A DNA stretch of 64,000 nt. It comes from Natrinema salifodinae. GTDB lineage: Archaea; Halobacteriota; Halobacteria; Halobacteriales; Natrialbaceae. The position numbers and the translations under genes are program-made. Under the pieces are notes generated by a model, which did not search any database, had not been told where the DNA came from, and was given only the letters and a program-made list of their open reading frames with translations. Location: positions 761,491 to 825,490 of the forward strand of contig NZ_FOIS01000003.1 of the NCBI RefSeq assembly GCF_900110455.1. Direction: 5' to 3'. Positions 9,719 to 44,665 of this stretch are shown here, piece after piece. How positions within the stretch are numbered: the first letter of the stretch is position 1; every line of letters begins with the position of its first letter.

Positions 9719-10018
9719 TTATTCCGCACAGCAGGCGTCTTTCTTCGGGGTCTGGGATTCGTCGACGCCGTTGCCGTCGGCCGCGACCGGTTCTTCCAGC
9801 CGATAGAGGCTCTGACGGGCGTCAGCGAAGTAGATGTCCTCGTCGACGATACCGATCTCTTCGAGGCGCTCGAGCGCGTACCGAACCGTCCGGGCCGAAA
9901 GCATCGATTCCTCGACGATCTGCTTCTGCGTCAGCGGCCCGTCGTACTCGAGGACCTTGAAGACGAGTTTCGCGCTCGGTGGCAAGTCTTCGATCTCCTC
10001 CCCGTCGGTCTCTGCCAT
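9719..10018 (-). CDS. Winged helix-turn-helix DNA-binding protein
   Basis: A 99-residue regulator of the MarR/ArsR-like winged-helix class. Residues about 15-70 hold the wHTH fold: LVFKVLEYDGPLTQKQIVEE, then the recognition helix region LSARTVRYALERLEEIGIV and a short wing. The C-terminus ends in DACCAE with a Cys pair that could sense redox state or metal, which is inference. The start at 10018 is supported by a TATA-like element about 29 bases upstream; the frame continues upstream to 10099, but that would run through the promoter. No obvious target operon is adjacent; it is transcribed in the same direction as the membrane protein at 9238. Confidence 0.87.
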   Translation of the reverse strand: MAETDGEEIEDLPPSAKLVFKVLEYDGPLTQKQIVEESMLSARTVRYALERLEEIGIVDEDIYFADARQSLYRLEEPVAADGNGVDESQTPKKDACCAE

Positions 10019-10040
10019 ATTACGAATCGAAAGGCCCCAG

Positions 10041-10050
10041 CAGTATAAAA
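10041..10050 (-). promoter_or_regulatory. TATA-type promoter of the winged-helix gene
   Basis: On the minus strand this reads TTTTATACTG, a good haloarchaeal TATA box, centred about 29 bases upstream of the ATG at 10018. The spacing predicts transcription start at or next to the start codon. Confidence 0.6.
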
Positions 10051-10405
10051 GTTGAGCCTTACGAGGAGCGATCATAAAAGATTGCAATGGACTTTCCACG
10101 ACAAAGTGCTGGCAGCGGCATCGAACGGCGGGATATGAGCAGCGTGCCGAACAGGTTGGCCCGCGGATACAGTCGCGGCAGCGAACACGTCACCGGCGTC
10201 GGTCGGCGGCCGTCGAAGCCGACGGCTATCGGACACGACGGTCGGATCGGTGGCCGCTCGTCCCGCGGCCGGCACGCTGACGGTCACTCGTCGCTTGCTC
10301 CGAGCGCCGCGCTCAAAGCTGTGGTGCCGACAACTTCCGGCATCTGAGTGCTGCCCTCGCAGTCGGTCGTCCGCGACCGTGAGAGACTGCGGGCACCGTC
10401 ACAGT
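10051..10405. other. Intergenic stretch without a supported gene
   Basis: About 355 bases between the winged-helix promoter and the end of the DUF5305 gene. Short open frames exist on both strands but are Arg/Ser/Pro-rich in the way of non-coding frames in GC-rich DNA. No RNA gene or strong inverted repeat was seen. Confidence 0.6.
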
Positions 10406-11590
10406 TCACAGCTGTTCCCAGACCTCCTCGTCGTCCTCGAACCCGTCCGGATCGTCGGGGGCCGCGAACTCGTCGCTCCCGTCGAGTTCCGAGAGTTCGT
10501 CGGCGGACAGCGTTCCGCCGGCGTCGACGACTGCCGACTGATCCTCCAGATCCAGTTCCGGCCAGGCGGTCTCCGCCCAGCGGCCGCGGTCGCTGTAGTA
10601 GTAGACGACGCTGTCGTTGACGACCGCGAACAGGCCGCGTTGTCGGTCGTGGACGACGCGCTCGTTCGTGTCGATCGCGACGTCGACGACGTCCTCCAGC
10701 GTGTCCAGCGAGACGTGGTAGTCGCCGATCCACATCGGGATCGAGCCCTCCGAGATCCACTCGGCGTACCGCTGTTCGTGGACTCGCCGACGAGCGGCGT
10801 CGGCGTCGGTCGGCGAGCGGCGGGCGACGAGGGCCGCGCCGGCGAGCGAGAGCGTCCCCAACAGCGACAGGCCGCCGATCAGCGCCGGGCTCCGGGACTC
10901 GGTCGTTCGCGCCGTGCCGCTCCGGTGGCTGTGAAGGGCCGACTCGGAGAGCGATCCCTCGAACCAGTAGGCCTCGTCCGTTATCACCACCGGTGTTTCG
11001 GTCGTGATCGTTCCCTGATGGTGTCCGGTATCGTACTCGGTCCGGAGTTCCATCACCAGGTCGACCGAACCGACGCCGGCGATCTCGCGCTCGAGTTCCC
11101 GCTGGCGCTCGCGGTGGGCCTCGACGTCGATCGTCGCTGCCGACGTCGCGACCCCGTTCTCGACGGTCGGCGACTCGCGCAGGACCCGGTGGGTCTCGTT
11201 CCAGAACGCGGCCCCGTCGCGGACCGCCTCGAACCGGAGCACGAGTTCGTGCGTGACATCCCCGTCTTCGATCAGCGTTTCCCCGGTCTCGTTTCGCAGG
11301 CGCGTCTCGGGTTCGACCGTCAGCGCCGGCGAGGCGTCGAGCAAGTAGACGGAGCTGTCGGTGATCCGGTCGCCCTCCGTCCAGAGCGTCCCGTTCTCGG
11401 TGACGACGGCGCTCGTATGCGCTTGGGACTTGACCCGCTCCTCGCCGAACTGCGGTGCGGTCGTCGTCTCCGGATTCGCGACGGCCCAGCCGGTCGCGCC
11501 GATCGAGAGCACGCCGAGAACGGCCAGTGCGATCGCGATCGAGCGGCCGTGTTCCGCGAGCAACAGATCGATCCGCGGATTGCCGATCAT
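10406..11590 (-). CDS. DUF5305-type membrane protein
   Basis: A 394-residue haloarchaeal membrane protein of the DUF5305 type. It has an N-terminal transmembrane anchor (about residues 18-40), an extracytoplasmic domain of roughly 170 residues (FGEERVKSQAHTSAVVTENG onward), a second transmembrane helix near 238-260, and a cytoplasmic part with a DYHVSLDTLEDVVDVAID and VVYYYSDRGRW region. It is the last gene of a leftward set that begins with the DUF1102 protein at 14879 and includes the S26B signal peptidase. That context suggests a role in surface-protein export or assembly. The molecular function is unknown. An acidic tail ends in EDDEEVWEQL. Confidence 0.85.
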   Translation of the reverse strand: MIGNPRIDLLLAEHGRSIAIALAVLGVLSIGATGWAVANPETTTAPQFGEERVKSQAHTSAVVTENGTLWTEGDRITDSSVYLLDASPALTVEPETRLRNETGETLIEDGDVTHELVLRFEAVRDGAAFWNETHRVLRESPTVENGVATSAATIDVEAHRERQRELEREIAGVGSVDLVMELRTEYDTGHHQGTITTETPVVITDEAYWFEGSLSESALHSHRSGTARTTESRSPALIGGLSLLGTLSLAGAALVARRSPTDADAARRRVHEQRYAEWISEGSIPMWIGDYHVSLDTLEDVVDVAIDTNERVVHDRQRGLFAVVNDSVVYYYSDRGRWAETAWPELDLEDQSAVVDAGGTLSADELSELDGSDEFAAPDDPDGFEDDEEVWEQL

Positions 11591-11747
11591 CCGTCAACAT
11601 CCCCCGATCGGTCCGCCACCCACACCGATTCGAACGTCCCAGTGACTCGATCAGTTCGATCCGGAACTGGTTGGAAATCGGGACGATTCATGTACAACCG
11701 AACAGAATGTACTCACATAAGGATAGTGGCCACACCGCGTGCGCGAG

Positions 11748-12947
11748 CTACTCACGATCACGCTCTCGGTCCCGACGCCACTTCCGCAGCGTCCGGTTCC
11801 ACCGGGTCGACAACGGAACGTGATCGCCCGCAGTCCGGAAGCGGACGTCCCCCGTGCCGACGGCCGCGAGCACGGTCGTGATCGCAATCACGACGATAAC
11901 CCCATTGACCGCCGCGATGGCGGCCAGCGGGGTGACGCCGTGTAGCCAGACGAGCACGGGCGGCGGCAACACGGCGAGGTAGCGATACTCCCCGAGGTGA
12001 CGCGTGTACTCGCCCGTCTCGTCGGGCGCGGACAGCGTCACCGACGTCTCACTGCTGTCACGGATGCCGATCATCTGCCACTCTGAACTGGGGTCGATAC
12101 CGCCGCTCTCGGCCTCGTGAACGACGACGACGGGCAGGTACCCGGCGTTGTCGACGGTGCGGGTAAGTTCCGTTCGCCCGCCAGGCGCGACGACCTGCGG
12201 ATCGTCGCTCGGCGACTCGGCGCTGACGAGTTCGTACTCGTAGGTGCCCGACGGAACTACCATCGCCGCGGTCGCGAACGTGACGAACACGAGCAAGACG
12301 AGTCCGAGCGCGGTCCGGAACGCGATCACGTTCTCGCGCGAGCGGGACCTGGTCGTCTCGCGCCTGGCGGGACCGAGTCGATCGAGGACGGTGCCGAACC
12401 CGAGCGTGGCGACGCCGATCGCGACCAGCAGCGCACCGAGGTCGTCCGCGGACGCCGTCGTCGTCACGCCGACGATCGACGCGGCGGTCCCGGACGCCCG
12501 CTCGGCGAGCCCCTGAATGCCCATCACCGCGGTGCCGAGGTGGGGGATCGTCACGACCTCGCCGTCGACCCGCCAGGCCTCGGCGACGATCTGGCCGTCC
12601 GTGACGTGGGGTTCCCCGCCGTCCTGGTCGGTAAACGGGTTCGCGTCGCCCTTCGTCACGTACCCCTCCTCGGTCTCGTCGACTACGCGGTGGGTCGTCA
12701 GCCCGCCGTCGTGGAGGTCCCTGGCCTGGTAGACGACGACGTCGCCCTCCTCGACGTCGCCGGCCACGAGATCGGGAATCGCGACGAACCCGTCGCCGGC
12801 GTCGATCGTCGGCTCCATGCTGCCGGTCGCGACGTAGCCGAGCAAAATCGGTTGGCCGAGCGCCTGGCCGACGAGCAGCAGGATGATCGCCAGCGCGACA
12901 CCGAATCCGAGACCTCGCTTAGCGAGCGCGGCAGTCGTCATCGGCAC
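11748..12947 (-). CDS. Signal peptidase I, archaeal S26B type, with long C-terminal extension
   Basis: A 399-residue membrane serine protease. The N-terminal third is the peptidase: a transmembrane anchor (about 14-34), catalytic Ser43 in ATGSMEPT, and THRVV with His86 in place of the bacterial Lys, as in ER and archaeal signal peptidases, followed by GDANPF (100-105) with the conserved Asp. The remaining 250 residues are unusual: two more transmembrane segments flank a DUF5305-like or CARDB-like extracytoplasmic domain, and a final helix precedes a basic RKWRRDRERDRE tail. It lies next to SipW-type substrates, so it is probably a dedicated peptidase rather than the general one. It follows the CARDB-like gene by 105 bases. 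Confidence 0.9.
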   Translation of the reverse strand: MPMTTAALAKRGLGFGVALAIILLLVGQALGQPILLGYVATGSMEPTIDAGDGFVAIPDLVAGDVEEGDVVVYQARDLHDGGLTTHRVVDETEEGYVTKGDANPFTDQDGGEPHVTDGQIVAEAWRVDGEVVTIPHLGTAVMGIQGLAERASGTAASIVGVTTTASADDLGALLVAIGVATLGFGTVLDRLGPARRETTRSRSRENVIAFRTALGLVLLVFVTFATAAMVVPSGTYEYELVSAESPSDDPQVVAPGGRTELTRTVDNAGYLPVVVVHEAESGGIDPSSEWQMIGIRDSSETSVTLSAPDETGEYTRHLGEYRYLAVLPPPVLVWLHGVTPLAAIAAVNGVIVVIAITTVLAAVGTGDVRFRTAGDHVPLSTRWNRTLRKWRRDRERDRE

Positions 12948-13052
12948 GTGAGTGGGTGAATCATAGTCGGGTACCAGTTCGGACGGCCGCTATTTCGGAG
13001 CCAATGGGATGCCGATCGGGAGAAGAGACGAGACGCGGACTCGAGGGGCCGG

Positions 13053-14195
13053 TCATCGAACGACCACCCGCCGGCGATTCGCGGCGACCAGCAGCGCTAC
13101 CAGGCCCGCCGTCGCCGGTGGTGCCAGCGCTGCGGCCGTCGACGCCGCGAGTTCGCGGTCCCGGATCGAGAACGCGCCCGGCTCGTCGACCGACACCGTC
13201 CCCGCGGGCACCCCGCTGACAGCGACGTCGGAAGTTCCTGGCTCGTCGAACGTCCGCTCGAACGTCACCATCCGCTCGCCGTTCGCCGGGACCGAGACGG
13301 CCCGACTGTCGACGACGATGCCGTCGACCGCGAGTTCGAGCGTGCGCTCGACTCCCTCGTCGGACGGATTTCGAACCGTCGCCCGGACGGTGGTCGACTC
13401 GCCGGCGGTGATTGTCGCGTCGTCGACCGTCGCATCGACGACGTCGATCGGCGGTCCATCGACGGTCACCGGTTCGCTCGCATCCCCGTCGATCCCGACC
13501 GCGTACGTCCCCGGCCACTCCATTGGCCGCTCGAACGTGACCGATTCCGTCTCGCCTGGTTCGACCGCGACCGTCCGCTGGTCGACGACGATGCCGTCGA
13601 CGGTCAGCGAGGCGGTCGTCTCGCCCGGGGCTTTGCCGTAATTTCGGTACGTCGCGGTCGCCGTCACCGTCTCTCCAGTTTCGACCGTCGTCGGCGAGAC
13701 GTTCAACTCCGAACGCTGGATTGCCGACGAGGGAGCGCTGCGATCGTTCGACCCGTCTTCGTATCGTGCGACGACCGAGAACGTCTCCGGTCGGTTCTGG
13801 GCGACGTGAGTATCGACCGCGACGCCGACAGTCGCGGTATCGCCGGCGGACAGCTCGAGGGGATTCGATTCGCTGATCGTGGCGGACGGATCGTCACCCC
13901 GGTAGAACGCGATCCCGGCGACGTCGTGATCGATCCAAACGCGGTCGACATCGGAGCCGGTGACCACGATCGTGAAGACGTTATCTACGCGCGTGATCGC
14001 GCGGTCGTTGAGGGACTCGAGGTCGAGTCGGAGTTCGTCGTCGACCGTCGCGTATCGGGTATCGGTCGGTTTGAGGACGACCCCATCTTCGCCGTGGACG
14101 ACCTCGTCTTCGCCGAACGTCACTGCCGCTGTCGGAACGACAAGGACGACGAGAAAGCAAACACCGGTCGCAGTGAGCAGTGGCGTAGACGACAT
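13053..14195 (-). CDS. Exported membrane-anchored protein with CARDB-like repeats
   Basis: A 380-residue protein with a signal/anchor at residues 7-26 (LTATGVCFLVVLVVPTAAV). A DUF1102-like extracytoplasmic part to about residue 160 precedes two tandem CARDB-type beta-sandwich repeats. Each repeat has a VDGIVVDxRxVxVxxxxxxxVTFER core (near 200-225 and 285-310). A C-terminal transmembrane helix (about 350-372) ends in basic residues. The architecture is that of a surface-displayed adhesion or scaffold protein held at both ends. It sits 48 bases downstream of the DUF1102 gene and upstream of the signal peptidase, so co-transcription is likely. Confidence 0.8.
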   Translation of the reverse strand: MSSTPLLTATGVCFLVVLVVPTAAVTFGEDEVVHGEDGVVLKPTDTRYATVDDELRLDLESLNDRAITRVDNVFTIVVTGSDVDRVWIDHDVAGIAFYRGDDPSATISESNPLELSAGDTATVGVAVDTHVAQNRPETFSVVARYEDGSNDRSAPSSAIQRSELNVSPTTVETGETVTATATYRNYGKAPGETTASLTVDGIVVDQRTVAVEPGETESVTFERPMEWPGTYAVGIDGDASEPVTVDGPPIDVVDATVDDATITAGESTTVRATVRNPSDEGVERTLELAVDGIVVDSRAVSVPANGERMVTFERTFDEPGTSDVAVSGVPAGTVSVDEPGAFSIRDRELAASTAAALAPPATAGLVALLVAANRRRVVVR

Positions 14196-14243
14196 CGTGG
14201 GGTCCTCGAGCCGATATGCTTCGTGTCCGTCGAAAGCCGATCG

Positions 14244-14879
14244 TTACAGCGACGACTCCGCAACGAACGTGACGCTATCGATGTCGACGCTGTAAGCGGA
14301 AATGTCTCCCGCGGACCCGTCGACGCTCGTCGTGTCGATCTCCAGTCCGATGTCCTCGTTACTCCCGCTACCGATACTGGTGTGTGGCGGAGCGCTGGTT
14401 TCGTCGTCAACGATACTGCTAGTGGTGCCGCCGAAGAACTTCAGGTCTACCGTCCCAGCGGAGGTGTTATCACTCGTCGTGACGTCCACCCGGAGAACCT
14501 GATCACCGTCGGAATCGGTAGCACTCGTGACGGAGTCCCCGATGTCGGGCGAACTAACGTACAGGCCGACGCCGGCGTCTCCCTCGTTTGCGACGTTGAT
14601 CAGCGGATCGATGACCGTCGTGGCGTCTATGTTCAGCCCGTCGGCGTTCCCCGTTCCGGCGGAGCCATCCAAATTGATCGTTATCGTTCCGTTCGAGCTG
14701 GACGCGTATCCGCTAGCGGTGTCGTCGAGCGAGAGGAGTGCGCTTGCGTCACCGGCCGTCGAAACGGTGATCGTCCGATCGGCTTCCACGGTACTAAACG
14801 CGCCCGTCCCGAGTGCGGTTCCACCGCCCGCGACGATCGTCCCGAGTCCAAGCACCACGTTGCGTCGATTCAGTCTCAT
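14244..14879 (-). CDS. DUF1102 exported protein with SipW-type signal peptide
   Basis: A 211-residue secreted protein. The N-terminus MRLNRRNVVLGLGTIVAGG followed by GTALGTGAFSTVEADRTI is a SipW-dependent type signal, with a long hydrophobic run and a GAFSTVEADR cleavage zone. The mature part is beta-rich and dominated by Thr, Ser, Asp and Gly. This family is recurrent in haloarchaea beside S26B peptidases. By analogy with bacterial TasA/CalY and archaeal bundling pili it may be a filament subunit, which is inference. The ATG at 14879 is preferred over one ten codons upstream because it begins the basic n-region. It is the first gene of the leftward set. Confidence 0.85.
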   Translation of the reverse strand: MRLNRRNVVLGLGTIVAGGGTALGTGAFSTVEADRTITVSTAGDASALLSLDDTASGYASSSNGTITINLDGSAGTGNADGLNIDATTVIDPLINVANEGDAGVGLYVSSPDIGDSVTSATDSDGDQVLRVDVTTSDNTSAGTVDLKFFGGTTSSIVDDETSAPPHTSIGSGSNEDIGLEIDTTSVDGSAGDISAYSVDIDSVTFVAESSL

Positions 14880-15011
14880 GATTGTAATCTCCGTACCGCG
14901 TTCCAGCACCGGTCCGCGACGGGTCCGGAACGCAGTTCTTACTCGTCTTCACGACCGTCACCCACTTTGTATTGAGTAGCCAGAACCGCTGAAAGACCGG
15001 CCATACGGCCG

Positions 15012-15028
15012 TTCAAGACGGTCTTGAA
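15012..15028. promoter_or_regulatory. 17-bp palindrome, candidate operator
   Basis: TTCAAGAC-G-GTCTTGAA is an exact 8-base inverted repeat with a one-base centre. It sits in the 443-base gap between the divergent DUF1102 and pilin-like genes. The perfect symmetry suggests a binding site for a dimeric regulator; the membrane-bound winged-helix protein at 18663 is one candidate. A shorter GC-rich inverted repeat follows at 15089-15095 and 15110-15116. Confidence 0.45.
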
Positions 15029-15290
15029 GGCAGTTCGTCGGCCGTCAGAACGCGCAAGTGGTCGCTGAAATCGCGTTCGCGGTCGCTGGCTCGCCACTGA
15101 GGCGAACCAGGCGAGCGAGCCATTCACTTCTGACTCCGCAGAGACCAGATTCCCGACGTAGCAATACAACGATCCCGGAATTCATAGTGTTCGTCAGATA
15201 GCTATTCCCGAAGAGAGGCGCGTACGACGGCCATCAAGGGTTACTTGAGCCGATTATCGGGCATCAGATATGTATGTACGGCCGTGCATG

Positions 15291-15298
15291 TTTTTATA
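15291..15298 (+). promoter_or_regulatory. TATA box of the pilin-like gene
   Basis: TTTTTATA lies about 27 bases before the ATG at 15323, matching archaeal promoter spacing for a leaderless transcript and deciding this start over the in-frame alternative at 15245. Confidence 0.6.
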
Positions 15299-15322
15299 GT
15301 CATTCTTGAGTACCGACGTTCA

Positions 15323-18300
15323 ATGGCCGGTAAAGAAATAGATCTGCGACAGCAGACGGGCGATAGCGAGACGCGGGGTGCGAGTCCGGTTATCGGGCTC
15401 GTCATTCTCTTCGCGCTCGTTATGGTCGGAGCACTGCTGGTATTCGCCGTCGGTTCGTCGATGTTCGATGCGCTCGAATCGGAGGCTAATCGAGAACAGA
15501 CCAGGCAATTCGTAAGCGAAACCGATCACAGAATCGCGACGGTTACAGAGACGGGCCAGGAGCAGCCGCTCCCGATCGACGAACTGTCAGCGGCACAGGT
15601 GACAGTGGTAGACGACGGTCGAATCGAAGTCGCCTGGTACAACGAGACGACCGGCAGTCACTGTTCCGCCAACGGCACGCTCCGCGCGCTCGAATTCGAA
15701 CTCGAGGATCGGACGGTCGCCCATCAAGGCGGTGGAATCTGGGAGTACAATGACGGGACGACGTCCGTCATCTCGGAGCCCAATATCGGGTACGACGGTG
15801 AATCGCTCCAATTACAGATCCTTCAACTCGAAGAGGGGGATTTCAACGCGGCCGAACCGGTCGCGCGAGCCGACCACGGCAAGGCGTCGGCACTGACCGG
15901 GGAGATCAACGACGCTGCGAATCGCTGTCCCGACGCGACCGATGTTGAACTCCGGATTAACGAGAGTACATACTACGACGGGTGGCATCGATATCTCGAG
16001 GATGCTGTCGGCGAGGACGACTATGACAACGTCGACGTTAAGTCCGACCCGACGAACGAATCCGTCGAAGTTCGGATCGAAGGTATCAGAGAACCTACTG
16101 AAGAAGCGACGTTACTCATCGAATCCGATGATGGCATCAAAAAGACAGTCGGTTCGAGCGACCAACGAGTCGAATTCGGGGATAACCTCCGATTCCAAGC
16201 AACACTGAACAACACTGGTGGCGACACGGTCAAACCACCGACGATGCGTGTCGTTATCGATGGCGGAACAATACAAGGAGAGGACAGCGGCAGTGCGGCC
16301 GTTCCCGCCGAGAAGACGAAACAGCGATCGGTCAAGATCGACTCGTACAAAGAGGTACTCACCCCCGGACGAACGTATGAGTACACGATCCAGACGCTCA
16401 ATGATTCCGGACAGGTCGACGATACACTCGACAAACCAGGAGAGTTCTATCTCGGTAAATCAGGCGACCACTTCAACATAACCGACGACGACATCAAAAC
16501 TGAACCGACCGGTGACGGGAACGTTACCATCAGCGCTGCGGTCCGGAATCAGGGGGTCCAACCCGGGACGCAGCAGGTAACTATCGACTTCGAGGAACTC
16601 GACGTTAGTGCAACCGAGACGGTCACGCTCGACTACGGCGCGACCGGGACGGTCAACTGGACGGTCAACGAGAGCGCCCTGCCGTCGAGTCCCACCGGGT
16701 TTACGATCGAAACGGAAACCGACGATGAAAGTGCACACGGAACCGTCGTTGGTCAGGGAAGCGGCGAAGAGACTTTCGTGGTCGTCGAAGACAAGGGCGT
16801 CGGAGGTGACCAGCTCGTCACCGATGACGGTCCGTTCACCGTCGAAGGTGAAATCGCGAGCACCTACGCTCGTGACGGTGTCACGGGCGAAATCAAGTTG
16901 CAGATTCCGGACACCGGCGTTTCCGAGACCGAGTCGGTGACGCTCGACAGTGGCGGACGTGAGACGGTCGCGTTCGAACTCGATCCCGACGATGGGTTCG
17001 ACGCCGGTAGGGTCTACGAGTACGACATTGTCGCCGACGGCGACGGCCTGAGCGAAACCGGATCGTTCTACGTCGGCAAACACGGGACGTACTTCGACCT
17101 GTCGAACGAGACTGCGACCGTCACCGACGACAGTGTGGTGATCGCTGCCGACTTGGCGAATACCGGCGTCAAAAACGGCTCCCAAGATGTGGCACTCGAG
17201 CTGGAATACCAAGATGATATGCCGCCCGAACTCAAAGACGAGAATCCGTATGGAGCGATCTTCGAGCAGGAGATCGACCGATCGTTCGGCGCGTCGGACG
17301 CCGTCGAACTGGAGCTCAACGAGAGCAATCTCCTCGACGGAGAGTACGAGGCGACGATCCGGACGGCGGACGAGTCGGTGACGACGACGTTCGCCGTCAC
17401 CGCCGGACTCGATCCGGGTCGCGTCGGCCTCGGTGACGTCGAAGACGCGAACGTGACCGTCGAAGTCGTCGGTTCGCAGGTCTCCGGAAACAGACTCAAC
17501 GGCGATCACCAACTCGCCCCGATGACGCTCGACGTCGTCGCGAACAGCGAAACGCAACACTCCTTCCGAAACCCGAACGGTGGAGATAACATCAATATCG
17601 GTCCGTCGTGGCAGGACAAGAACGACGATAGCTACCGGTACGAATTCACGGTAAAGGACGAAACGGAGCTGACTTTACGGAATACGAGATACTCATCGAC
17701 TGATTCGAGGTTCTGGGGGCGCTTTTCGACCTGTGCGGACGAACGCACTGATCCGAACGATCTCCCGCACTATTCGGGTCCGACCGATCAGGACTTCGTC
17801 TGGTGTAATAACGTCCCGAGCGATACCGCGTTCGGGCCGATCGACGCGTCACAAGACCAAAACCTGCAGAACGTTCGAGTCCGGAGCGCCGAAAACGATA
17901 CGATTCCGGCGCTTCCCGCGGGGACCGAGCAACAGCTCAGCGCGACGGAAACCCTCGAGGAACGGGGACTCGTGACGGCCGACGGGGACGAACTCGATCT
18001 CGGACCGGGTGAGTTCGTGTTTCTCTTCGAGAATACTGAAGACTGTGGGAGCGTGGGGTGTGACCCCGACGATATCGACGCGCTCTGGAACAACGCAATC
18101 AACACCTATGAACGAAATCCGGACCGGACTCACGACCCGAACTTTAACGATTTGGTCGTCTACGTTCAGGTCGAACGAGCGGGTGTCGATCCGAAAACAC
18201 CCAGCATTACGATCCAGCCTGGCGGCGGCGATTCGACCGATGTCGGGCACGGGTTCGGTCAGAACACGGGCGGTGGCAGTGACGTGAGCCCGGAACTCGA

Positions 18301-18424
18301 AGGGGGCACTGACGAAGGGAACGCGCCAAGTCTCGGAACCGGCGAGTCTGACGGGACCAGAGCGGAGGACGTGACCGTCGATACCGGAATCGACATCGAC
18401 ACGGATCACATCGTGATCGGATAA
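15323..18424 (+). CDS. Large type IV pilin-like surface protein (DUF7289-like)
   Basis: A 1033-residue secreted or surface protein. The N-terminus carries the haloarchaeal pilin-like motif GASPVIGLVILFALVMVGA (about residues 24-42), preceded by Arg, which suggests a prepilin-peptidase or anchor signal. The ectodomain is long and beta-rich. A repeat of roughly 207 residues is visible: YEYTIQ...GEFYLGKSGDHFNI near residues 353-383 and YEYDIV...GSFYVGKHGTYFDL near 565-590, each followed by a CARDB-like strand set (VRNQGV, LANTGV). Two Cys pairs near residues 805-830 and 906-911 may form disulfides. The C-terminus has no membrane anchor. It is divergent from the DUF1102/signal peptidase set and upstream of a second DUF1102-like gene. 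Confidence 0.83.
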   Translation: MAGKEIDLRQQTGDSETRGASPVIGLVILFALVMVGALLVFAVGSSMFDALESEANREQTRQFVSETDHRIATVTETGQEQPLPIDELSAAQVTVVDDGRIEVAWYNETTGSHCSANGTLRALEFELEDRTVAHQGGGIWEYNDGTTSVISEPNIGYDGESLQLQILQLEEGDFNAAEPVARADHGKASALTGEINDAANRCPDATDVELRINESTYYDGWHRYLEDAVGEDDYDNVDVKSDPTNESVEVRIEGIREPTEEATLLIESDDGIKKTVGSSDQRVEFGDNLRFQATLNNTGGDTVKPPTMRVVIDGGTIQGEDSGSAAVPAEKTKQRSVKIDSYKEVLTPGRTYEYTIQTLNDSGQVDDTLDKPGEFYLGKSGDHFNITDDDIKTEPTGDGNVTISAAVRNQGVQPGTQQVTIDFEELDVSATETVTLDYGATGTVNWTVNESALPSSPTGFTIETETDDESAHGTVVGQGSGEETFVVVEDKGVGGDQLVTDDGPFTVEGEIASTYARDGVTGEIKLQIPDTGVSETESVTLDSGGRETVAFELDPDDGFDAGRVYEYDIVADGDGLSETGSFYVGKHGTYFDLSNETATVTDDSVVIAADLANTGVKNGSQDVALELEYQDDMPPELKDENPYGAIFEQEIDRSFGASDAVELELNESNLLDGEYEATIRTADESVTTTFAVTAGLDPGRVGLGDVEDANVTVEVVGSQVSGNRLNGDHQLAPMTLDVVANSETQHSFRNPNGGDNINIGPSWQDKNDDSYRYEFTVKDETELTLRNTRYSSTDSRFWGRFSTCADERTDPNDLPHYSGPTDQDFVWCNNVPSDTAFGPIDASQDQNLQNVRVRSAENDTIPALPAGTEQQLSATETLEERGLVTADGDELDLGPGEFVFLFENTEDCGSVGCDPDDIDALWNNAINTYERNPDRTHDPNFNDLVVYVQVERAGVDPKTPSITIQPGGGDSTDVGHGFGQNTGGGSDVSPELEGGTDEGNAPSLGTGESDGTRAEDVTVDTGIDIDTDHIVIG

Positions 18425-18662
18425 TACTCGATCTCCGGTACCGTCGCGGTTCACTGTGGTATTTCGACTGAATTGACGCGCTGACGAGCCGAAACTCGAA
18501 CGGCTCTCGCGACGCCACTACCCGAGATGGCGGTACGGGTAACCGAAAGAGCGGGAATCCCGTTGCGGTCGGAGTCTCTTCCCGCTCCCGAAGATGCGAT
18601 CCGTCTCGCTCGGCAACAAGTGTTATCTATCAATAGTGATGTTATTCACACTAACTAGGGGA

Positions 18663-19235
18663 ATGGCAACGACCACTGAGAGCCAATCAGCCACGGAGGG
18701 GACAACGCGTCAGGACGACCAATCGAGACAGGGCGAGATTTTCGACCTGCTGAGCAACCGGCGTCGTCGCTATGCCATCCACTACTGCAAACGAGAGGGC
18801 GAACCGGTCACGCTGGGCGATCTCGCCGAACACGTCGCCGCCTGGGAACTCGACAAGGAGGTCGAAGAGATCACCGCAGCCGAACGAAAACGGGTCTACA
18901 CCTCGCTACAGCAAACGCACGTCCCGACGCTCGAGCGAGCCGACGTGATCGAGTTCGACGATCGAACGATCGAACTGACCAGTGAGGCGACGGAACTCGA
19001 CGTGTATCTCGATATCGTGCCCGCAGACACGATCCCGTGGAGTACCTATTATCTGGGGTTGACCGGCGTCGGGACGATTGTGATGGCGGGCGTGTGGCTC
19101 GAAGCGGTCCCGACCGAGGTGATTCCGGAACTCGGGTGGGCGACGCTGGTGTTCGCGCTGTTCGCCGTTTCTGCAGTCGTCCACGATGTCCAAACTCGAC
19201 GGATGCGACTCGGGGAACTGGAACGACCACCGTGA
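18663..19235 (+). CDS. Membrane-bound winged-helix regulator (DUF7344-like)
   Basis: A 190-residue protein. Residues about 25-110 form a wHTH domain of the haloarchaeal DUF7344 type (EIFDLLSNRRRRYAIHYCKR, then LAEHVAAWE and KRVYTSLQQTHVPTLERADV). Two transmembrane helices follow near 135-175. Such proteins are thought to couple membrane events to transcription. It lies between the two exported-protein genes; the next gene starts 4 bases after its stop, so the two are probably one transcript. It is a plausible regulator of this surface locus, acting at the palindrome at 15012 or elsewhere. The start at 18663 was chosen because the upstream extension is hydrophobic and atypical. Confidence 0.83.
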   Translation: MATTTESQSATEGTTRQDDQSRQGEIFDLLSNRRRRYAIHYCKREGEPVTLGDLAEHVAAWELDKEVEEITAAERKRVYTSLQQTHVPTLERADVIEFDDRTIELTSEATELDVYLDIVPADTIPWSTYYLGLTGVGTIVMAGVWLEAVPTEVIPELGWATLVFALFAVSAVVHDVQTRRMRLGELERPP

Positions 19236-19239
19236 ATTC

Positions 19240-20064
19240 ATGCGTACACTCACCAAATTCGCAGTTGCGTTCATCGTCGTCGGAGTAGCGGTATCCGGAG
19301 CTCCGACGTTCGGATTCAGTTCCGTCGCGAGCGATCGAGGTACCACGGTTTCAATCGCTGAAAATAACAACGCTCTCATCGCACTGATGGATGAGAGTCC
19401 GGCGGAATTTCCGAATAACGAGTTTGTAACGGCCGCTTCGGTCGAAAATAATATCGACGGGGACGTAACGGTCGACTACACTATTTCTGTCAGCGATACC
19501 GCGGTCGGATTGCGATTCGACGGCGACGAAAGCTACGGTGAGCTCACCGGTACGACGACGATTTCCACTTTCAAAGAGATCGAGCTAGACTGCGCGAGTA
19601 GCGGCCAAAGAGAGAGCAATATGGTAACGATGACCGTCGCGATCACCGAAGCCGCAGGCCCCGGCGTCGGAGTTCGGGACGCGGAGATGGAACTCGTATT
19701 CGACTGTGAGGACGGCGGTACGACGGAACCGAGCGATTCAGCCGTCTTCGAACGGCTCGAAGCCGAAGCGGGCCAGGGCAACATCAAAGAGGTCGGTGTG
19801 ACGTTTGAGACGACGCAGACCGTCGACGTCGCTATTCGGGCGTCCGACGGTAGCGGTGAGCTCGGATCGGAAACGGTCACCGGCGTTGAACCCCGGCAGG
19901 AATACGCGCGCACCATCAGTTGGAACGGAAATACCAACCCGGTTCAGGTGGATGTTACTGCCTCTGATCCGGACGATGGCTCCGAAATCGAACGCTGCGT
20001 CGGGGAGGTGAGCCAAAACGATGAGTTCATCAGCCTCTCCGATGGGGGGTTCGATTGCGGCTAA
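19240..20064 (+). CDS. Second DUF1102-like exported protein
   Basis: A 274-residue secreted protein with an N-terminal signal (TLTKFAVAFIVVGVAVSGAP) and a mature start resembling the DUF1102 protein at 14244: TTVSIAENNNALIAL here versus ITVSTAGDASALLSL there. About 170 residues of DUF1102-like beta structure follow. A second beta-rich domain begins at residue ~180 (SDSAVFERLEAEAGQGNI). Cysteines occur in ELDCASS, VFDCEDG, IERCVGE and at the C-terminal FDCG, suggesting disulfides. It starts 4 bases after the winged-helix gene and is the last gene of the rightward set. Confidence 0.78.
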   Translation: MRTLTKFAVAFIVVGVAVSGAPTFGFSSVASDRGTTVSIAENNNALIALMDESPAEFPNNEFVTAASVENNIDGDVTVDYTISVSDTAVGLRFDGDESYGELTGTTTISTFKEIELDCASSGQRESNMVTMTVAITEAAGPGVGVRDAEMELVFDCEDGGTTEPSDSAVFERLEAEAGQGNIKEVGVTFETTQTVDVAIRASDGSGELGSETVTGVEPRQEYARTISWNGNTNPVQVDVTASDPDDGSEIERCVGEVSQNDEFISLSDGGFDCG

Positions 20065-22449: not shown

Positions 22450-22971
22450 TTAACAGATCATCCGTTGGCAGGTCCCACAGAGGTTCTCTTCCTTGATGTC
22501 GACCTCACGGACCGTCGGCGAGAAGTTCATCACGCAGCGGTTGTTGTCACAGTGTTCGAGCCCGTAGGTGTGGCCGATCTCGTGGACGATCTCCTTGCGG
22601 ACCCGGTCCTCGAAGATGTCGGTCGCACTCTGGTTCGAGAAGCCGCCGTCGCTCGAGGTCTGGAGCCGGTAGGTGGAGACGACGCTGCCGCTGCCGTCGA
22701 GGTAGGCCAGGCCGAAGACGTAGTTGCGTCGTCGGTAGAAGAGATCGTGCGGCGTGATCGCGATGTTCTTGTCGCCGCGACCGACCCGCTCGGCGAGTTG
22801 AATGAACGTTTCGGCGGAGTACTGGTTCCGGTCGGAGTCGTAAGCGCCGTTGGGGACCGACTGCGAGTCGGTGATCGACACGTCGCAGTCGTAGACCGAT
22901 CGCAACGCGGCGGAGGCCGCCCGCTTGACGTTAGCGGGCACGTTGCCGACCGGCACGATATCCACGAGCAT
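22450..22971 (-). CDS. amzA: Archaemetzincin
   Basis: A 173-residue metzincin-type zinc metalloprotease of the archaemetzincin family. The full signature is seen: HEIGHTYGLEHC with zinc ligands His130, His134 and His140 and catalytic Glu131, then CX4C (Cys141, Cys146), the Met-turn Met148, and the downstream CXXC (Cys165, Cys168) that binds a structural zinc. Physiological substrates are unknown; family members act on small peptides at best. The start at 22971 is supported by a TTTATG element at 22997-23002 on the minus strand, so the mRNA is probably leaderless. Only 39 bases separate it from the divergent UPF0146 gene. Confidence 0.95.
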   Translation of the reverse strand: MLVDIVPVGNVPANVKRAASAALRSVYDCDVSITDSQSVPNGAYDSDRNQYSAETFIQLAERVGRGDKNIAITPHDLFYRRRNYVFGLAYLDGSGSVVSTYRLQTSSDGGFSNQSATDIFEDRVRKEIVHEIGHTYGLEHCDNNRCVMNFSPTVREVDIKEENLCGTCQRMIC

Positions 22972-23010
22972 AGCAAGTGCTATGGCCGCGGGTGGCATAA
23001 ACGTCCCGCC

Positions 23011-23415
23011 GTGGCCCGCTCACACCGGAATCCCGATGTAATAATCGATTACCTTACCGAGTACGAACGGATCGTCGAGGTCGGCATCGGTCGCCGAACC
23101 GGCCTGGCGAGCGCGCTCGTCGATCGAGGGGTGTCCGTCACTGCGACGGACGTTCACGAGCGCGACGTTCCCGATGGCGTGCGGTTCGTCCGTGACGATA
23201 TCGTCGACCCCGACCCATCGGTCTACGCCGATGCGGACGCGATCTACGCGCGGAATCTGCCGCCGGAGCTCCACCGGCCGGCACTCGAGACCGCTCGCGA
23301 GGCCGCGGCAGACTTCCTGTTTACGACGCTAGGTGGCGATCAGCCGGCGATTCCGGTCGAACAGCGGACGGTCGAAACGGGGACGCTGTATCTCGCTCGG
23401 TCGCGGCCGGAGTGA
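23011..23415 (+). CDS. UPF0146 family protein (methyltransferase-like)
   Basis: A 134-residue protein of the UPF0146 group: VEVGIGRRTGLASALVDRG (near residues 20-38) resembles a class I methyltransferase motif I, followed by TATDVHE and the conserved YARNLPPELHRP. It is too short to be a full methyltransferase, and no function is established. The start is a GTG at 23011; upstream reading runs into the amzA gene, whose start is at 22971. The compact divergent arrangement implies overlapping promoters for both genes. Confidence 0.82.
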   Translation: MARSHRNPDVIIDYLTEYERIVEVGIGRRTGLASALVDRGVSVTATDVHERDVPDGVRFVRDDIVDPDPSVYADADAIYARNLPPELHRPALETAREAAADFLFTTLGGDQPAIPVEQRTVETGTLYLARSRPE

Positions 23416-32947: not shown

Positions 32948-34196
32948 CTACGACACGACCTGTTCTCTCGTGCGAAACACCCCGCTCTCGCGGTCGAACA
33001 GGTGTACCGATGGCTGTGCCACACAGCCGTTACTCCTATCCTCGCCATGAGGACTCGGAGTTATCTTCTGTCGCATGTTCTCCGCCCCGTTACAATCCGC
33101 GTTCCCAACCAACTCGCACGACGAGCAAACGTACAGGCCACGTTCGACACGGTTCGACTTCGTGTCGTCACCACACCGTGAGCAGGTCTTACTGGTGTCC
33201 CACTCGTTCTCCTTCAGCACTTCAACACCGCGTATCTCTCCTTTGTATTCGAGGTACTGGTAGATGCGGTCAAACGCCCACGAGTGCAACTTCTTGTTGC
33301 CGGTTTTGCCCCAGTCAGATTCTCGCACGTCTTCAGGCCAACTCACCGCGAGCGTGCTAACACCGTTCAACACACTCGGTGATGATGGTGTCCGTGAGAA
33401 CGTGGTAGAAGTGGGTTTCACGGTCTGCGAGTTTTCGACGTGCCCACATCGACTTCTCCGAGGGGCCGTTCTCGCCTTCCGTGTCGTACTCTGTGTGGGT
33501 GAAGTAGTGCTTGTCCTGCTTGAGCGAGTTGTCGGGGTACAGAACGTATTCGTCGGGGAACGCGACCGTGGCGATGTTCGTGATGCCGAGGTCGATGCCT
33601 GCCACTTCGTCGCCTGCTGAGTCGTTGGTTTCGAGTTCGACTTTGCAGACGAAGTGCAGTTCCCACTCATTCCCGTTCCAAATCGCACGAACGTTCTGCA
33701 CCTTGTTGACCTCACCGAGGTCAACGTCCGGGCGGGTTTGGTACTCACAGAGGATGAAGTCTGACCACGATTCTTTGAGGTTCGAGCCTTTGCTGAGTCG
33801 GACGCGGTTGTTCTCGGGGTCGTGTTTGAATCCGTCTGCTTTGAACGTCACCGTGGAACGCGGTCGGGTGTCGCCGTGTTTGCGGTATCCGGGCGGATTC
33901 GCCTTCGGGTCTTTCTGTCGCAAGTCGAACCACGACTGGAAAGCGTCAGAAAGTTCTTCAATGACTTTCTGACTGGATTGCGCGTTCAAGTCTTTCCAGC
34001 ACGACTGGTTCGTCATATACGATTTCAGCGGGCCTTCATCTGGAATTTCGCCGGTTGCGTCCCAGATGCGGTCGGCTGTCTAGCGTGCGGCGTTCCAGAT
34101 TTTTGAGGCGGAGTCTCCGAGCGAATCGAGGCCATCACACACCTGTTGGTGGTTCTGGATGGAACCAACGTAGGTGCAAATGACCTCAATCGTCAT
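32948..34196 (-). pseudogene. tnpB: Broken tnpB (RNA-guided nuclease family protein)
   Basis: TnpB/OrfB-type transposon nuclease, now inactive. Read from the ATG at 34196 (MTIEVICTYVGSIQNHQQ), the gene has an in-frame TAG at codon 39 (34080-34082), where a Trp codon is expected, and a frameshift near 33360 (ECVERC then stop; the sequence resumes as GVSTLAVSWPEDVRESDWG in another frame). RuvC-like parts are recognisable: AGIDLGITNIATVAF with the first catalytic Asp, and the C-terminal zinc finger CSRCGDD...CSSC followed by GNADCNGAENM. Length without lesions would be about 415 residues, normal for the family. Two independent lesions make this a pseudogene. Confidence 0.88.
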
Positions 34197-40767: not shown

Positions 40768-41180
40768 GAGGAAAAGCGCCTGCTTGCAGAGTACACCCCG
40801 GTTCGACGCTCTTGATCCCAGTACACTCAGTTTTCAGTGCGGCCAATTTGAAAGTTTAAGGAGCTAATTTTCCCTGTTACTGGTTGGTCTATGAACTCAG
40901 AGTGGATGTCGAAGGGGCTGAGCTAGTAGCGGCCGCTCACCATTCACGCCAGAATTTGTTGCAGCTACCTGGCTTATATACCGACAGAGAGCAAGCTATA
41001 GTACGTGTTAACCGATGGCCTCGGCACTCAGAAAACACGAAACTAAGGTTAGTTGTTACGTTCCTGACTATCGGTCACGACCGTGGCCGATCGCCATAGG
41101 TATGACTGATTGAGTTGTCTCTATGATATCGGGTTGCAGAGGCCGGAGGAATTGAGGGGAGTCGATACGCCGCGGCGCCG
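40768..41180. other. Intergenic region carrying a repeated 14-base box
   Basis: About 410 bases between gldA and the chlorite dismutase gene. It contains GGCCTCGGCACTCA at 41017-41030, the same box found at 42732 and 53102. A GTTTAAGGAGC block near 40854 may belong to a promoter. A 71-codon frame here is not supported. Confidence 0.5.
41017..41030 (+). repeat. Copy 1 of the GGCCTCGGCAYTCA box
   Basis: GGCCTCGGCACTCA. The same 14 bases recur at 42732-42745 (one mismatch) and 53102-53115 (exact), all in the same orientation. Confidence 0.6.
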
Positions 41181-41921
41181 TTACGTCTCCTCCACCGGGT
41201 GGCCGATCAGTCGTTCGACCGCCGTAATCGGTTCGCGGATACGGCCGACCAGCGTCGGGTCGCCGTACCGAACGTACTGATACTCGGGAATCGACTGCAG
41301 TTCGCGAAAGAGCTCCGTGAACGAGACGAGATCGTCCGTCTCGAAGTAGGTGATGAAATCCGCGTCGTCCACGCCGCTGGCGTGGTAGAGCTGGCGCCGA
41401 ACGCGGTCGAGGTACTCGAGCGTCGGCTCGACGTGATCGCGCATCAGTTCGAGCCGGTCCTCGTCCGACAGCGTCCACCAGTCGGCGGTCTTCCGGGCCG
41501 GAATGACGATCGCGTACTGCGGCGGTTCTGGACCGTCGTACGTCGCCGCCTCCAGTTTCGCCTCGAGGTCGGGCGCGTCCGGCGTGTACACGGGCTCTCG
41601 GACGATTCCGATGAAGCAAAACGTTCGCCGGGAGTGCGCGCCGAGCGCCGTCCGGCGAAACGTCCGCAGAAACGCCTGCGCGGTCGCCAGTTCGCGAGCG
41701 TGGACCCGCAGCAGGTAGTCGGTCCCGCTCGTCAGTCCCTCGGTCACGTAGGCGTCTACGAGAACTCGATCCTCGTAGTCGGCGAGGAGATCCGCGATCT
41801 CATCCGAAACCTTCGTCGGTGATTCCGCCCGCCCGCTCCTCCACGTCGGGTCGAGCGCGAACGCGGCGAACACGCCGAACACGCCCGTTTCCTCGAGCAT
41901 CGGTGCACCGTGACTGGACAT
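41181..41921 (-). CDS. cld: Chlorite dismutase family hemoprotein, canonical catalytic residues
   Basis: A 246-residue stand-alone Cld-fold protein. It resembles respiratory chlorite dismutases (ClO2- to Cl- + O2) rather than the longer haloarchaeal Cld-monooxygenase fusion. Matching blocks: YVTEGLTSGTDYLLRVHA, YAIVIPARKTADWWTLSDE, LMRDHVEPTLEYLDRVRRQL, and LYHASGVDDADFITYFETDDL. The proximal heme ligand aligns with His163 and the distal Arg with Arg176, keeping the 13-residue spacing of characterised enzymes. There is no secretion signal, so it would act in the cytoplasm. The ATG at 41921 is preferred to one nine codons upstream. No chlorate or perchlorate reductase genes are in the window. 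Confidence 0.85.
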   Translation of the reverse strand: MSSHGAPMLEETGVFGVFAAFALDPTWRSGRAESPTKVSDEIADLLADYEDRVLVDAYVTEGLTSGTDYLLRVHARELATAQAFLRTFRRTALGAHSRRTFCFIGIVREPVYTPDAPDLEAKLEAATYDGPEPPQYAIVIPARKTADWWTLSDEDRLELMRDHVEPTLEYLDRVRRQLYHASGVDDADFITYFETDDLVSFTELFRELQSIPEYQYVRYGDPTLVGRIREPITAVERLIGHPVEET

Positions 41922-42098
41922 GATTCGTGTCACGACGGCGACGGACAAACCGTTGGTGGAGGTCCTCGGGTCGGTCCGATCGGCCTCCCTCGAGGGGACA
42001 GATTTCCCTGTATTGGCAGGGTTACAGGACGATAATGGCTTCAGAAGTCCTCGTCGAACTGCGCTCCGTCAGCGACCGAAATCAGCGACGTCGATGTG

Positions 42099-42382
42099 TA
42101 TGATCTGGGATTGTCTCAGGCAATGCAACGATATATCGATCTGGGACATGTTGAAGTAGATGACGAAGACGAACCACACGAAATCCGCCAGACGGAGAAG
42201 GGCGAGCGGTATATGAGCGGATACGAGCGAACCAAGCTGCGACTTGACGAAACTTTCCGACAAACAAAGGAGCGGATAGCAGAGACTGTCAAAAAGCACG
42301 GCGACAAGAGCGCAATGGGATGGTCCAAGAGGAGAGCATCCAGGAAGCGAAGGAGAATCCGTTCCGGAAGGACCTGAAGTAG
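42099..42382 (+). pseudogene. 5'-truncated, frameshifted copy of the YwgA/Panacea-like gene
   Basis: This stretch aligns base by base with 51342-51626, the second half of the YwgA/Panacea-like gene, including SQAMQRYIDLGHVEVD and HEIRQTEKGERYMSGYER. The first 160 bases of the gene are absent and one base is lost in GCGCAA-TGGGATGG (versus GCGCAAACGAGATGG on the right), so translation drifts to a basic nonsense tail. The shared TAG stop context GACCTGAAGTAG remains at 42371-42382. It is the left arm of the island repeat. Confidence 0.85.
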
Positions 42383-42401
42383 TTTAGCTCTATCCAGCCA
42401 T

Positions 42402-42475
42402 ATGCGTTCATCGCTCAGAAAGACGACTGAACTGTGATCCCCGAAGAAGTGAGCGGTGGAGAAGATCGGATCGGA
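42402..42475 (+). pseudogene. Stub of the CoiA-like nuclease gene
   Basis: ATGCGTTCATCGCTC here corresponds to ATGCCGTTCATCGCTC at 51646, with one base lost after the start codon, and similarity continues for about 70 bases (ATCCCCGAAGAAGTGAGCG versus ATCCCAGAGGAGGTGGGTG). It then jumps to sequence that matches the region downstream of the intact gene (52825 onward). About 1.1 kb of the gene is deleted. Confidence 0.75.
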
Positions 42476-42731
42476 TTCCCGGTCGTATTTTTGTGCTGGG
42501 TGTGCGAGTGATTGTCACATAGAAGCGATCATTAATCAGATCATGAGTTGCAAGCGTGACTGCCGGCGAACGAATATGGCCTTGGGTGGCCGAGGCCACG
42601 GAACTGATATCAGCTATAGCACGGAAATGCTACAATCAAATAAAATACCGGGCCCAATGTCCGATATTTTCCAGTTAAACAGTTATATCTCAAGAAGAAT
42701 ATTGATTTTACGCAAATCGGAGTTGTAATGG

Positions 42732-42745
42732 GGCCTCGGCATTCA
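42732..42745 (+). repeat. Copy 2 of the GGCCTCGGCAYTCA box
   Basis: GGCCTCGGCATTCA, about 250 bases after the last part of the left repeat arm; copy 3 lies about 275 bases after the same point of the right arm. Confidence 0.6.
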
Positions 42746-42883
42746 TACCGCGCGAAATTAACATTAGATGACACATTCATGGTAGATCGGCATAGGGGTA
42801 GTTGATCACCACGCCTGTAGTGGATCACCGATACGATGGTCACTCGCATGACTGATACAAGGTCTAGCCACGCTAGATAGCGT

Positions 42884-43393
42884 ATGATGACCGATCGACC
42901 GCAATGGGAAGAATCGATGGGATTGGCAGAGGGATCGACACAGATCACGCTCACGTGTAGCAAGAAGGAGCGTGAGATGTGGAGTAAAGAGGCTGCCAAG
43001 GAGGGGTTCAGCAGCCGTTCCAAATATCTCTACATCCTGATCCAGGAAGCTCGGGCGTACCGGCAACACGGCGTGTTCGCCGATCGGAGCAGTGAGGAAC
43101 GCATCGAGGAGTTAGAGGCGCAGGTCGAAGCGATGAAACGGAGACTTGAGAACGAGCAGGGGAAGCCGCGTTTCCGCAAGGAATTGAGCGACCCAGAGTA
43201 CATCGAGTTGTTCCTGGAAGAGACGTATAAGACGTTACCCGAGATTTTGCAGGAGGTCGTGGAGTGTGGTGTATTAGATAACCGAGTACGGAAAGAGATC
43301 GAGAGCGGATTGTATGTTATGGCCGGTAAGGACCAGGTTGAGTACGAACCCGGCTGGGGCTGGAAGCTGACCACTGAGAATACGGAAGACTAG
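42884..43393 (+). CDS. Island protein with RHH-like N-terminus and coiled coil
   Basis: A 169-residue protein of the island. Residues 18-55 (TQITLTCSKKEREMWSKEAA, then SSRSKYLYILIQEARAY) resemble a ribbon-helix-helix DNA-binding unit. A short coiled coil (70-95) and a helical C-terminal part ending in WGWKLTTENTED follow. Such proteins are frequent on haloarchaeal plasmids and proviruses as regulators. A hairpin-capable CCAC-N7-GTGG at about 42809-42823, 60 bases upstream, might be its operator. Composition is more AT-rich than the core genes. Its stop overlaps the convergent stop of the next gene. The ATG two positions downstream (42887) is an equal start. Confidence 0.75.
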   Translation: MMTDRPQWEESMGLAEGSTQITLTCSKKEREMWSKEAAKEGFSSRSKYLYILIQEARAYRQHGVFADRSSEERIEELEAQVEAMKRRLENEQGKPRFRKELSDPEYIELFLEETYKTLPEILQEVVECGVLDNRVRKEIESGLYVMAGKDQVEYEPGWGWKLTTENTED

Positions 43394-43926
43394 CGTTCAG
43401 GGAGCTGGTCTTTGTGGACGAAAACTGGATCTTTCTCCTCCTCCGCTTTACGGAGTGTCTTGAGCAGTGAAACCGCGTCAACGAACTCGTCCGGCAGTGT
43501 AAATGGATCTTCATCGTTATCTGCTCTGGTTTCACAGCTCACGAGGAAACCTCTGAGTCGGAAGGTAACGCTGGCGGGCAGGAAAATCACGTCGTGTTCT
43601 CCAGAGTGGGTTTCCTGCCACGCTGCGATGAGATTCTCTGCACGGGATCGTGTTTCCTTGATACTCTCCTCCAATGTTTCGTCACCGGGCGTCGTCTCTT
43701 CCCAGGTGTCTTTGAGAGCATCTTTGACGAGATCTGCGCCAGGACCGTCGAGATGCGGTGTTTCCCGTTCAGCGTCGATTACGGATTGAAATGCTTTGAG
43801 CTGTGACTGACGGACTGACACGGGATATGCAACAGCGTATTCGTCTTCCGGGAGGTCGATCGTTGGTTCTGAATCCGGTTCTTCTGGCGGCGTAGGCGTT
43901 CCGAGGATTGATTGGAGGAAACCCAT
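43390..43926 (-). CDS. Island hypothetical protein
   Basis: A 178-residue acidic protein. It starts GFLQSILGTPTPPEEPDSEP (a flexible, Pro-rich N-terminus) and continues with a mostly helical domain (RQSQLKAFQSVIDAERETPH, then ESIKETRSRAENLIAAWQET) and a strand-rich middle (HDVIFLPASVTFRLRGFLV). No motif identifies it. The frame is open upstream to 44244, but the ATG at 43926 begins the acidic, haloarchaeal-type sequence. It is the only leftward gene in the island and ends tail to tail with the RHH-like gene. Confidence 0.7.
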   Translation of the reverse strand: MGFLQSILGTPTPPEEPDSEPTIDLPEDEYAVAYPVSVRQSQLKAFQSVIDAERETPHLDGPGADLVKDALKDTWEETTPGDETLEESIKETRSRAENLIAAWQETHSGEHDVIFLPASVTFRLRGFLVSCETRADNDEDPFTLPDEFVDAVSLLKTLRKAEEEKDPVFVHKDQLPER

Positions 43927-43987
43927 GTTGGGATGACTGTTCGGAAACCCTATCAGTTTTCTGCAGCAGCCGCCGGATAGCGGTAGT

Positions 43988-44010
43988 ATCGCACCACCTG
44001 TCGAGGCACT
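43988..44010 (+). repeat. Island CCTGTCGAGG box, copy 1
   Basis: TCGCACCACCTGTCGAGG lies 60-75 bases before the gene at 44065. A near copy, TCGCGCCGCCTGTCGAGG, is at 46102-46119 upstream of the nuclease gene. It may be a shared regulatory element. Confidence 0.4.
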
Positions 44011-44064
44011 CCGAGAAAACCGATACCGGTTAGACTTATCTGTAAGGTAGGACGACGAAATTTT

Positions 44065-44496: not shown

Positions 44497-44665
44497 TAAT
44501 GTCAAAGATCCTGATACGAAAGGGTTCTACTATCAGCCAACGCCGATGCCTTAGCACTAACCCATCGATAATAAATTGACATAATGCAATGTTTTCAGAT
44601 ATTGGGTGAGGTCGATGACGTCGAACTACCCAGGAGTTCTTGTATTGATCCCTCAAATGTAGTCC

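Follow-up and report, generated by a model that had tools for sequence, protein, structure and literature searches.

A predicted tafi pilus locus in the haloarchaeon Natrinema salifodinae

Identification of the locus

The locus at positions 10406-20064 of a 64,000-nucleotide stretch of the Natrinema salifodinae genome (contig NZ_FOIS01000003.1, positions 761,491 to 825,490; hereafter the window) very probably makes a tafi pilus. Tafi stands for “Tat-fimbriae”, a system that a citing paper (PMC12687288) credits to Galeva et al. (iScience 2025). Homology, synteny and fold, together with the filament that others have solved for an orthologous pilin (Protein Data Bank (PDB) entry 9P0A), support this assignment; filaments and gene expression in N. 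salifodinae itself are predicted from the genes. A preliminary description of the window, made from the letters alone, had proposed that these genes export surface proteins and assemble them into a filament, and the solved tafi pilus bears this out. It had also suggested that the system might be undescribed. Since the orthologous pilin forms the solved tafi pilus, the system has already been described, and it is known from the NCBIfam models TafA, TafC, TafE and TafF and from Galeva et al. as cited in that passage. The tafi fibre itself is therefore not new; what is new here is DUF5305 as a core partner, a putative pilin-type anchor (TafF-like), and a predicted split between twin-arginine translocation (Tat) and Sec export.

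The pilin gene (14244-14879, minus strand) encodes a TafE-family protein. Its listed open reading frame (ORF) begins at a GTG at 14909; the likely start codon is at 14879. One solved chain matched the ORF 14244-14909 in a PDB sequence search, that of 9P0A, with an alignment that begins at M11 and covers the whole length (E = 1.6e-25). This chain, named “Pilin”, belongs to the entry “Structure of Natrinema sp. J7-2 Tafi pilus” (release date 2025-07-23). It shows 100% identity over 214 aa with the product of a Natrinema gari JCM 14663 gene (L047:7935-8612) that has the same gene order and the same flanks as the window pilin. Identities between the window and the N. gari locus were 93% for ABCE1, 94% for a helix-turn-helix (HTH) protein, 76% for both DUF5305 and DUF7344, and 74% for the signal peptidase, with lower values for the CARDB protein (61%), the pilin (41%) and the TafC-like protein (29%). 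Within Natrialbaceae, no core part changes faster than the pilin, whose mean pairwise identity is 0.36, against 0.58 for the TafF-like protein, 0.69 for DUF5305 and 0.75 for the peptidase.

Structure prediction, which the preliminary description had proposed for both secreted proteins with TasA or AbpA as the expected fold, placed the pilin closest to the solved tafi pilin. An AlphaFold model of the mature chain, built with a 73-sequence alignment (mean predicted local distance difference test score 82, predicted template modelling score 0.80), matched 9P0A in a structure search with Z 15.3 over 155 residues at 2.5 Å. The next structure was AbpA (7UEG; Z 8.3, 131 residues, 12% identity), only slightly ahead of FimA-type structures at about 7.7. 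Bacterial TasA was not among the matches listed in the structure searches, an absence that does not exclude likeness.

Some results weigh against the assignment. The TafE model of NCBIfam covers the full length of the pilin (3.4e-20) with a score of 72 bits, under its curated cut-off of 155 bits. The second secreted protein of the locus matched TafC weakly (8.9e-5, below the curated cut-off), and its mature chain alone gave no TafC match in NCBIfam. No TafA match was found in the window genome at E<=1e-10. On the other side, the solved 9P0A pilin also falls under the TafE cut-off (77 bits), and the Taf cut-offs of NCBIfam are a naming threshold, not a biological definition. The TafE model matched 71 of 73 pilin homologues on the mature chain alone, and the TafC model matched 16 of 29 homologues of the second subunit.

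NCBIfam calls TafE a fimbrial adapter, and canonical taf loci carry TafA as a separate gene. The TafE-family protein of the window might thus be only an adapter, with the main shaft subunit encoded elsewhere. We consider this unlikely, because this TafE-family protein is what the 9P0A pilus consists of, and the called gene order of its N. gari locus contains no TafA; the lack of a TafA match in the window genome speaks against it as well. With no TafA match in the window genome or in the called N. gari locus, and a TafE-family protein as the pilin of the solved filament, the name “fimbrial adapter” seems a poor description of what the protein does in this lineage.

Gene layout, export signals and cleavage motif

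On the minus strand, the pilin (14244-14909) is followed in transcription order by the CARDB protein (13053-14195), an S26B signal peptidase (11748-12947) and a DUF5305 protein (10406-11590). Divergently, on the plus strand, lie genes for a DUF7289 protein (15245-18424), a DUF7344 protein (18594-19235) and the second secreted protein (19186-20064). Window genes were assigned by Pfam and NCBIfam profile matches on ORFs, and the coordinates of the preliminary description were rechecked. Every gene named there was open at its position, and the whole proposed set (DUF5305, S26B, CARDB, the secreted pair, DUF7289 and a winged-helix protein) was present with families matched by the profiles. A bacterial-type promoter scan of the divergent region found nothing; such models are not meaningful in archaea. 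Conservation was examined in 80 named loci, almost all haloarchaeal by name, which were retrieved with the peptidase alignment as query; genes were counted with a simple ORF picker, which may miss some. One of the loci (L077, PULR01000059.1) is a haloarchaeal-type taf locus in a Mollicutes metagenome-assembled genome and probably lies on a mis-binned contig.

The two secreted proteins are predicted to take different export routes, Tat for the pilin and Sec for the TafC-like subunit. In the pilin, a Tat signal that the preliminary description had not mentioned occupies nt 14802-14879 (MRLNRRNVVLGLG...GTG). It has the motif NRRNVV, a weakly hydrophobic h-region and no strongly hydrophobic segment, and the predicted mature chain runs from nt 14801 (AFSTVEADR...). 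The second subunit has a Sec-type signal, with a hydrophobic segment and no twin arginine (RR), and a predicted mature start at nt 19312 (GFSSVASDR...). Within Natrialbaceae, RR was present in 34 of 37 operon pilins, the three exceptions having RK signals. Among divergent subunits it was absent in 29 of 32 from Natrialbaceae and present in 25 of 27 from elsewhere. Mean h-region hydrophobicity hardly separated all RR from non-RR signals (1.63 vs 1.69); therefore the Tat/Sec prediction is based on the RR motif and the calls of hydrophobic segments. In the RK pilins (L040, L050 and L052) the core of the signal is also more hydrophobic, as would be expected if the main pilin of these species had switched from Tat to Sec.

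Despite their differing signals, both secreted proteins keep the same cleavage motif. An N-terminal pattern, G|AF(S/T/D)..(V)..A.R.V.V...D..A.L, recurs across the 80 loci, and the motif reads G|AF(S/T/D)xxxxA.R in 112 family members, which were selected by the motif pattern. In a profile-profile comparison, the pilin and second-subunit families matched over the N-terminal region with 98.1% probability, and the common pattern is not due to chance. A shared mature start had already been noticed in the preliminary description; the likeness stands, and the start itself likely lies about 10 residues earlier, at AFSTVEADR and GFSSVASDR. The 9P0A chain comprises 188 of 215 residues and ends at 215, a length that fits an ordered start at F28 and would place the mature start at AF27-28. 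The motif puts Phe at P2'. In TasA, Phe at this position makes the protein need SipW rather than LepB, as stated in a passage of PMC10269814.

Both secreted proteins had been called DUF1102-like. This label was ruled out, as neither protein matched Pfam DUF1102 (PF06510) at E<=1, and a profile search found no match anywhere in the genome. The pilin of a distant taf-type locus (L120) does match DUF1102 (6.7e-35).

Signal peptidase and its partner DUF5305

The peptidase (11748-12947, minus strand) is of S26B (Sec11/SipW-like) type, provisionally named TafD-like. It scored over the cut-off of TIGR02228 and matched the SipW model of NCBIfam (2.6e-9). Its catalytic motifs supply Ser (GSMEPT), His (TTHRVV) and Asp (TKGDANPFTDQD); S43, H86 and D101/D107 are invariant in the peptidase alignment, completing the S26B Ser-His-Asp set. 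The large extra domain noted in the preliminary description is a module of a beta domain between transmembrane (TM) segments (TM-beta-TM), common to the canonical taf peptidase. The genome has two further S26 peptidases, Sec11a/b-like and adjacent to each other, that lie away from any pilin gene, so that the dedication of the locus peptidase to the filament subunits is probable. The proposal of a SipW-type peptidase holds as to its likeness to SipW. The enzyme would be specific for the pilin motif.

The DUF5305 membrane protein (10406-11590, minus strand; PF17231, 8.2e-50) was found in 74 of the 80 loci, compared with about 70 for pilin-type proteins, 64 for DUF7344 and 16 for DUF7289. We also inspected 21 loci beyond haloarchaea, from other classes of the phylum in which a DUF5305 gene was callable: it had an S26 peptidase within 6 kb in 19 loci and a pilin-type protein within that distance in 16. 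Some of these pilin-type neighbours were TasA/camelysin-type (PF12389 above cut-off, GTLAYFSDTETS signals) and others taf-type; one genome carries both locus types (L114 and L142). DUF5305 thus adjoins the peptidase in most taf loci and lies next to TasA/camelysin-type proteins in other euryarchaea. It is a core partner in the locus and appears to accompany SipW-type peptidases across euryarchaea. It probably acts with the peptidase in assembly or release.

Thus, the peptidase-DUF5305 pair and the cleavage logic are a common element of tafi and archaeal TasA-type loci, and the fold is possibly shared. We give about even chances to a broader proposal, in which a single S26B and DUF5305 module would serve both tafi and TasA/camelysin-type fibres, maturing Tat or Sec subunits at one motif, and in which a single Natrialbaceae fibre would mix Tat- and Sec-exported subunits on a TafF-like acceptor.

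The SipW-like peptidase, the Phe at P2', the second-best fold (AbpA) and the finding, in other archaea, of the peptidase together with DUF5305 next to TasA/camelysin-type proteins would also suit a separate, undescribed haloarchaeal TasA/SipW matrix-fibre system, as the preliminary description had it. Such a system is nevertheless very unlikely, as the solved tafi pilin 9P0A is identical to the product of the syntenic gene. In addition, a profile-profile comparison of the mature tafi pilins with archaeal TasA-type proteins gave a probability of 0.4%, indicating no sequence kinship, and neither secreted protein had a Pfam match to PF12389 (TasA/camelysin). A TasA-type label for the pilin by sequence was ruled out on these two grounds. 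Of the suggested likeness to TasA and AbpA, a probable relation of fold to AbpA remains, and the profile comparison showed no sequence kinship with archaeal TasA-type proteins.

TafF-like protein, second subunit and proposed assembly

The TafF-like protein (13053-14195, minus strand) had been described as CARDB-like and double-anchored, in agreement with the CARDB match (1.6e-11) and a hydrophobic segment at each end. It consists of a signal/TM segment, a pilin-homologous domain (about 29-145), CARDB repeats and a C-terminal TM segment. The N-terminal domain matched the pilin domain from about pilin residue 16 on (98.7%, E 4.3e-16, profile-profile comparison), and the AFS..A.R donor segment is missing. 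An iterated CARDB profile recruited pilins, which pointed to the TafF-pilin homology, and a curated alignment (A4) was used instead. The TafF model matched 9 of 27 members of the CARDB-protein family, including the TafF of the taf locus itself. A pilin-type domain without the donor-strand motif, held in the membrane, is most simply explained by an anchoring role; the protein is most likely the membrane-held acceptor of the first pilin and the anchor of the fibre.

The TafC-like second subunit (19240-20064 within ORF 19186-20064, plus strand; likely start codon at 19240) had no match in a PDB sequence search. Its AlphaFold2 model (same two scores 74 and 0.54) shows an N-terminal sandwich and a C-terminal domain, the latter matching Fn3/Ig-like domains with Z about 10 in the structure search, a widespread arrangement. 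From this extra domain and the link to TafC, our guess is that it may be a tip or minor subunit.

Assembly may then proceed as follows. The pilin would be folded and exported by Tat, and the S26B peptidase would cut before AFS..A.R and free an N-terminal donor strand. Subunits would join when this strand is seated in the beta-sandwich groove of the adjacent subunit, a donor-strand exchange that is predicted, as is its direction. The TafF-like protein would accept the strand of the first pilin and fix the fibre in the membrane, and the TafC-like subunit would enter through Sec, be cut at the same motif and probably take the tip or a minor position. DUF5305 would be the membrane partner of the peptidase, and DUF7344 would regulate the locus.

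The DUF7344 protein (18594-19235, likely start 18663, plus strand; PF24035, 9.1e-30) is a winged-helix protein with two C-terminal TM segments, in agreement with the membrane-bound winged-helix regulator of the preliminary description. It also occurs in canonical taf loci (L013, L122-L124) and is predicted to control the locus.

Neighbouring genes and side observations

The DUF7289 gene (15245-18424, likely start 15323, plus strand; PF23960, 2e-17) encodes a large surface protein of 1033 aa from an internal ATG, whose N-terminus resembles that of type IV pilins (Pilin_N 0.027, UpsA 5e-4). It lies between the pilin and the regulator, and in some other loci at another position. Its N-terminus and its place inside the locus would suit a cluster for a type IV pilus or adhesin built around this protein, with the small proteins as accessories. 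This is scarcely credible, as DUF7289 was not found in 64 of the 80 loci while pilin, peptidase and DUF5305 persist, and the neighbouring genes showed neither an ATPase nor a platform protein. The 1033-residue pilin-like protein is thus present as first described; being almost confined to Natrialbaceae loci, it is a lineage-specific neighbour of the tafi locus and not a core part.

A cytoplasmic HTH regulator of the winged-helix type (9719-10099, minus strand; HTH_24, 4.5e-6) was found in 23 of the 80 loci and is syntenic in Natrialbaceae only. Elsewhere in the window, the stretch 41000-53500 has a GC content of 0.47-0.52 against about 0.66 and encodes an SMC-like protein (49466-51190; Lamassu LmuB models, 5.6e-28) and an HSDR_N protein (46202-47317); it is possibly a defence island. 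A second stretch of lower GC contains a weak Csx1-type match (33357-34016, minus strand; 3e-7). An archaemetzincin-like metalloprotease (22450-22998, minus strand; Peptidase_M54, 1.8e-21) is antisense to the first half of an ORF on the plus strand (22465-23415) that is probably spurious in part.

Comparison with known systems

A cluster that had no name can now be placed as a tafi locus in which every gene has an assigned or proposed part. DUF5305, whose function is unknown, gains a functional setting beside SipW-type peptidases across euryarchaea, and the TafF-like protein suggests how tafi may be anchored. Those haloarchaea that can be grown and mutated allow a direct test of the predicted Tat/Sec split within one locus.

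A canonical taf locus (genome G028) has TafA, TafC and TafE over their cut-offs, a TafF match, DUF7344 and a peptidase of the same type; the canonical loci L122-L124 additionally hold DUF5305. TafA was over its cut-off in 14 of 145 genomes of the class, and the corresponding Natrialbaceae locus carries it in N. salsiterrestre (L033, 212 bits) and in genome G010. One region (G033:C1:2522000-2561800, L024 and L025) has clustered TafE-family genes, with 13 TafE matches and extra peptidase and DUF7344 genes. The window locus contains homologues of TafC, TafE, TafF, the peptidase (including its extra module) and DUF7344, with matches of varying strength, and DUF5305 as in L122-L124. It differs from the canonical loci in having no TafA, in the CARDB repeats of the TafF-like protein and in the Sec-type signal of the TafC-like subunit.

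The archaeal bundling pilus protein AbpA of Pyrobaculum provides the second-best fold. To our knowledge, AbpA is not exported by Tat. The likeness to the TasA/TapA/SipW system of Bacillus lies in a SipW-like dedicated peptidase, Phe at P2' and the N-terminal donor-strand logic known for TasA/TapA (PMC9674648), whereas Bacillus TasA uses Sec and not Tat. The closest counterpart is the tafi pilus of Natrinema sp. J7-2 (9P0A). The window pilin is diverged from it (about 41% identity), and the TafC-like subunit much more so (29%), but the two systems share an orthologous pilin in the same syntenic locus, with the same fold, Tat signal and mature motif, and the same neighbours, namely the peptidase, the TafF-like protein, DUF5305 and DUF7344.

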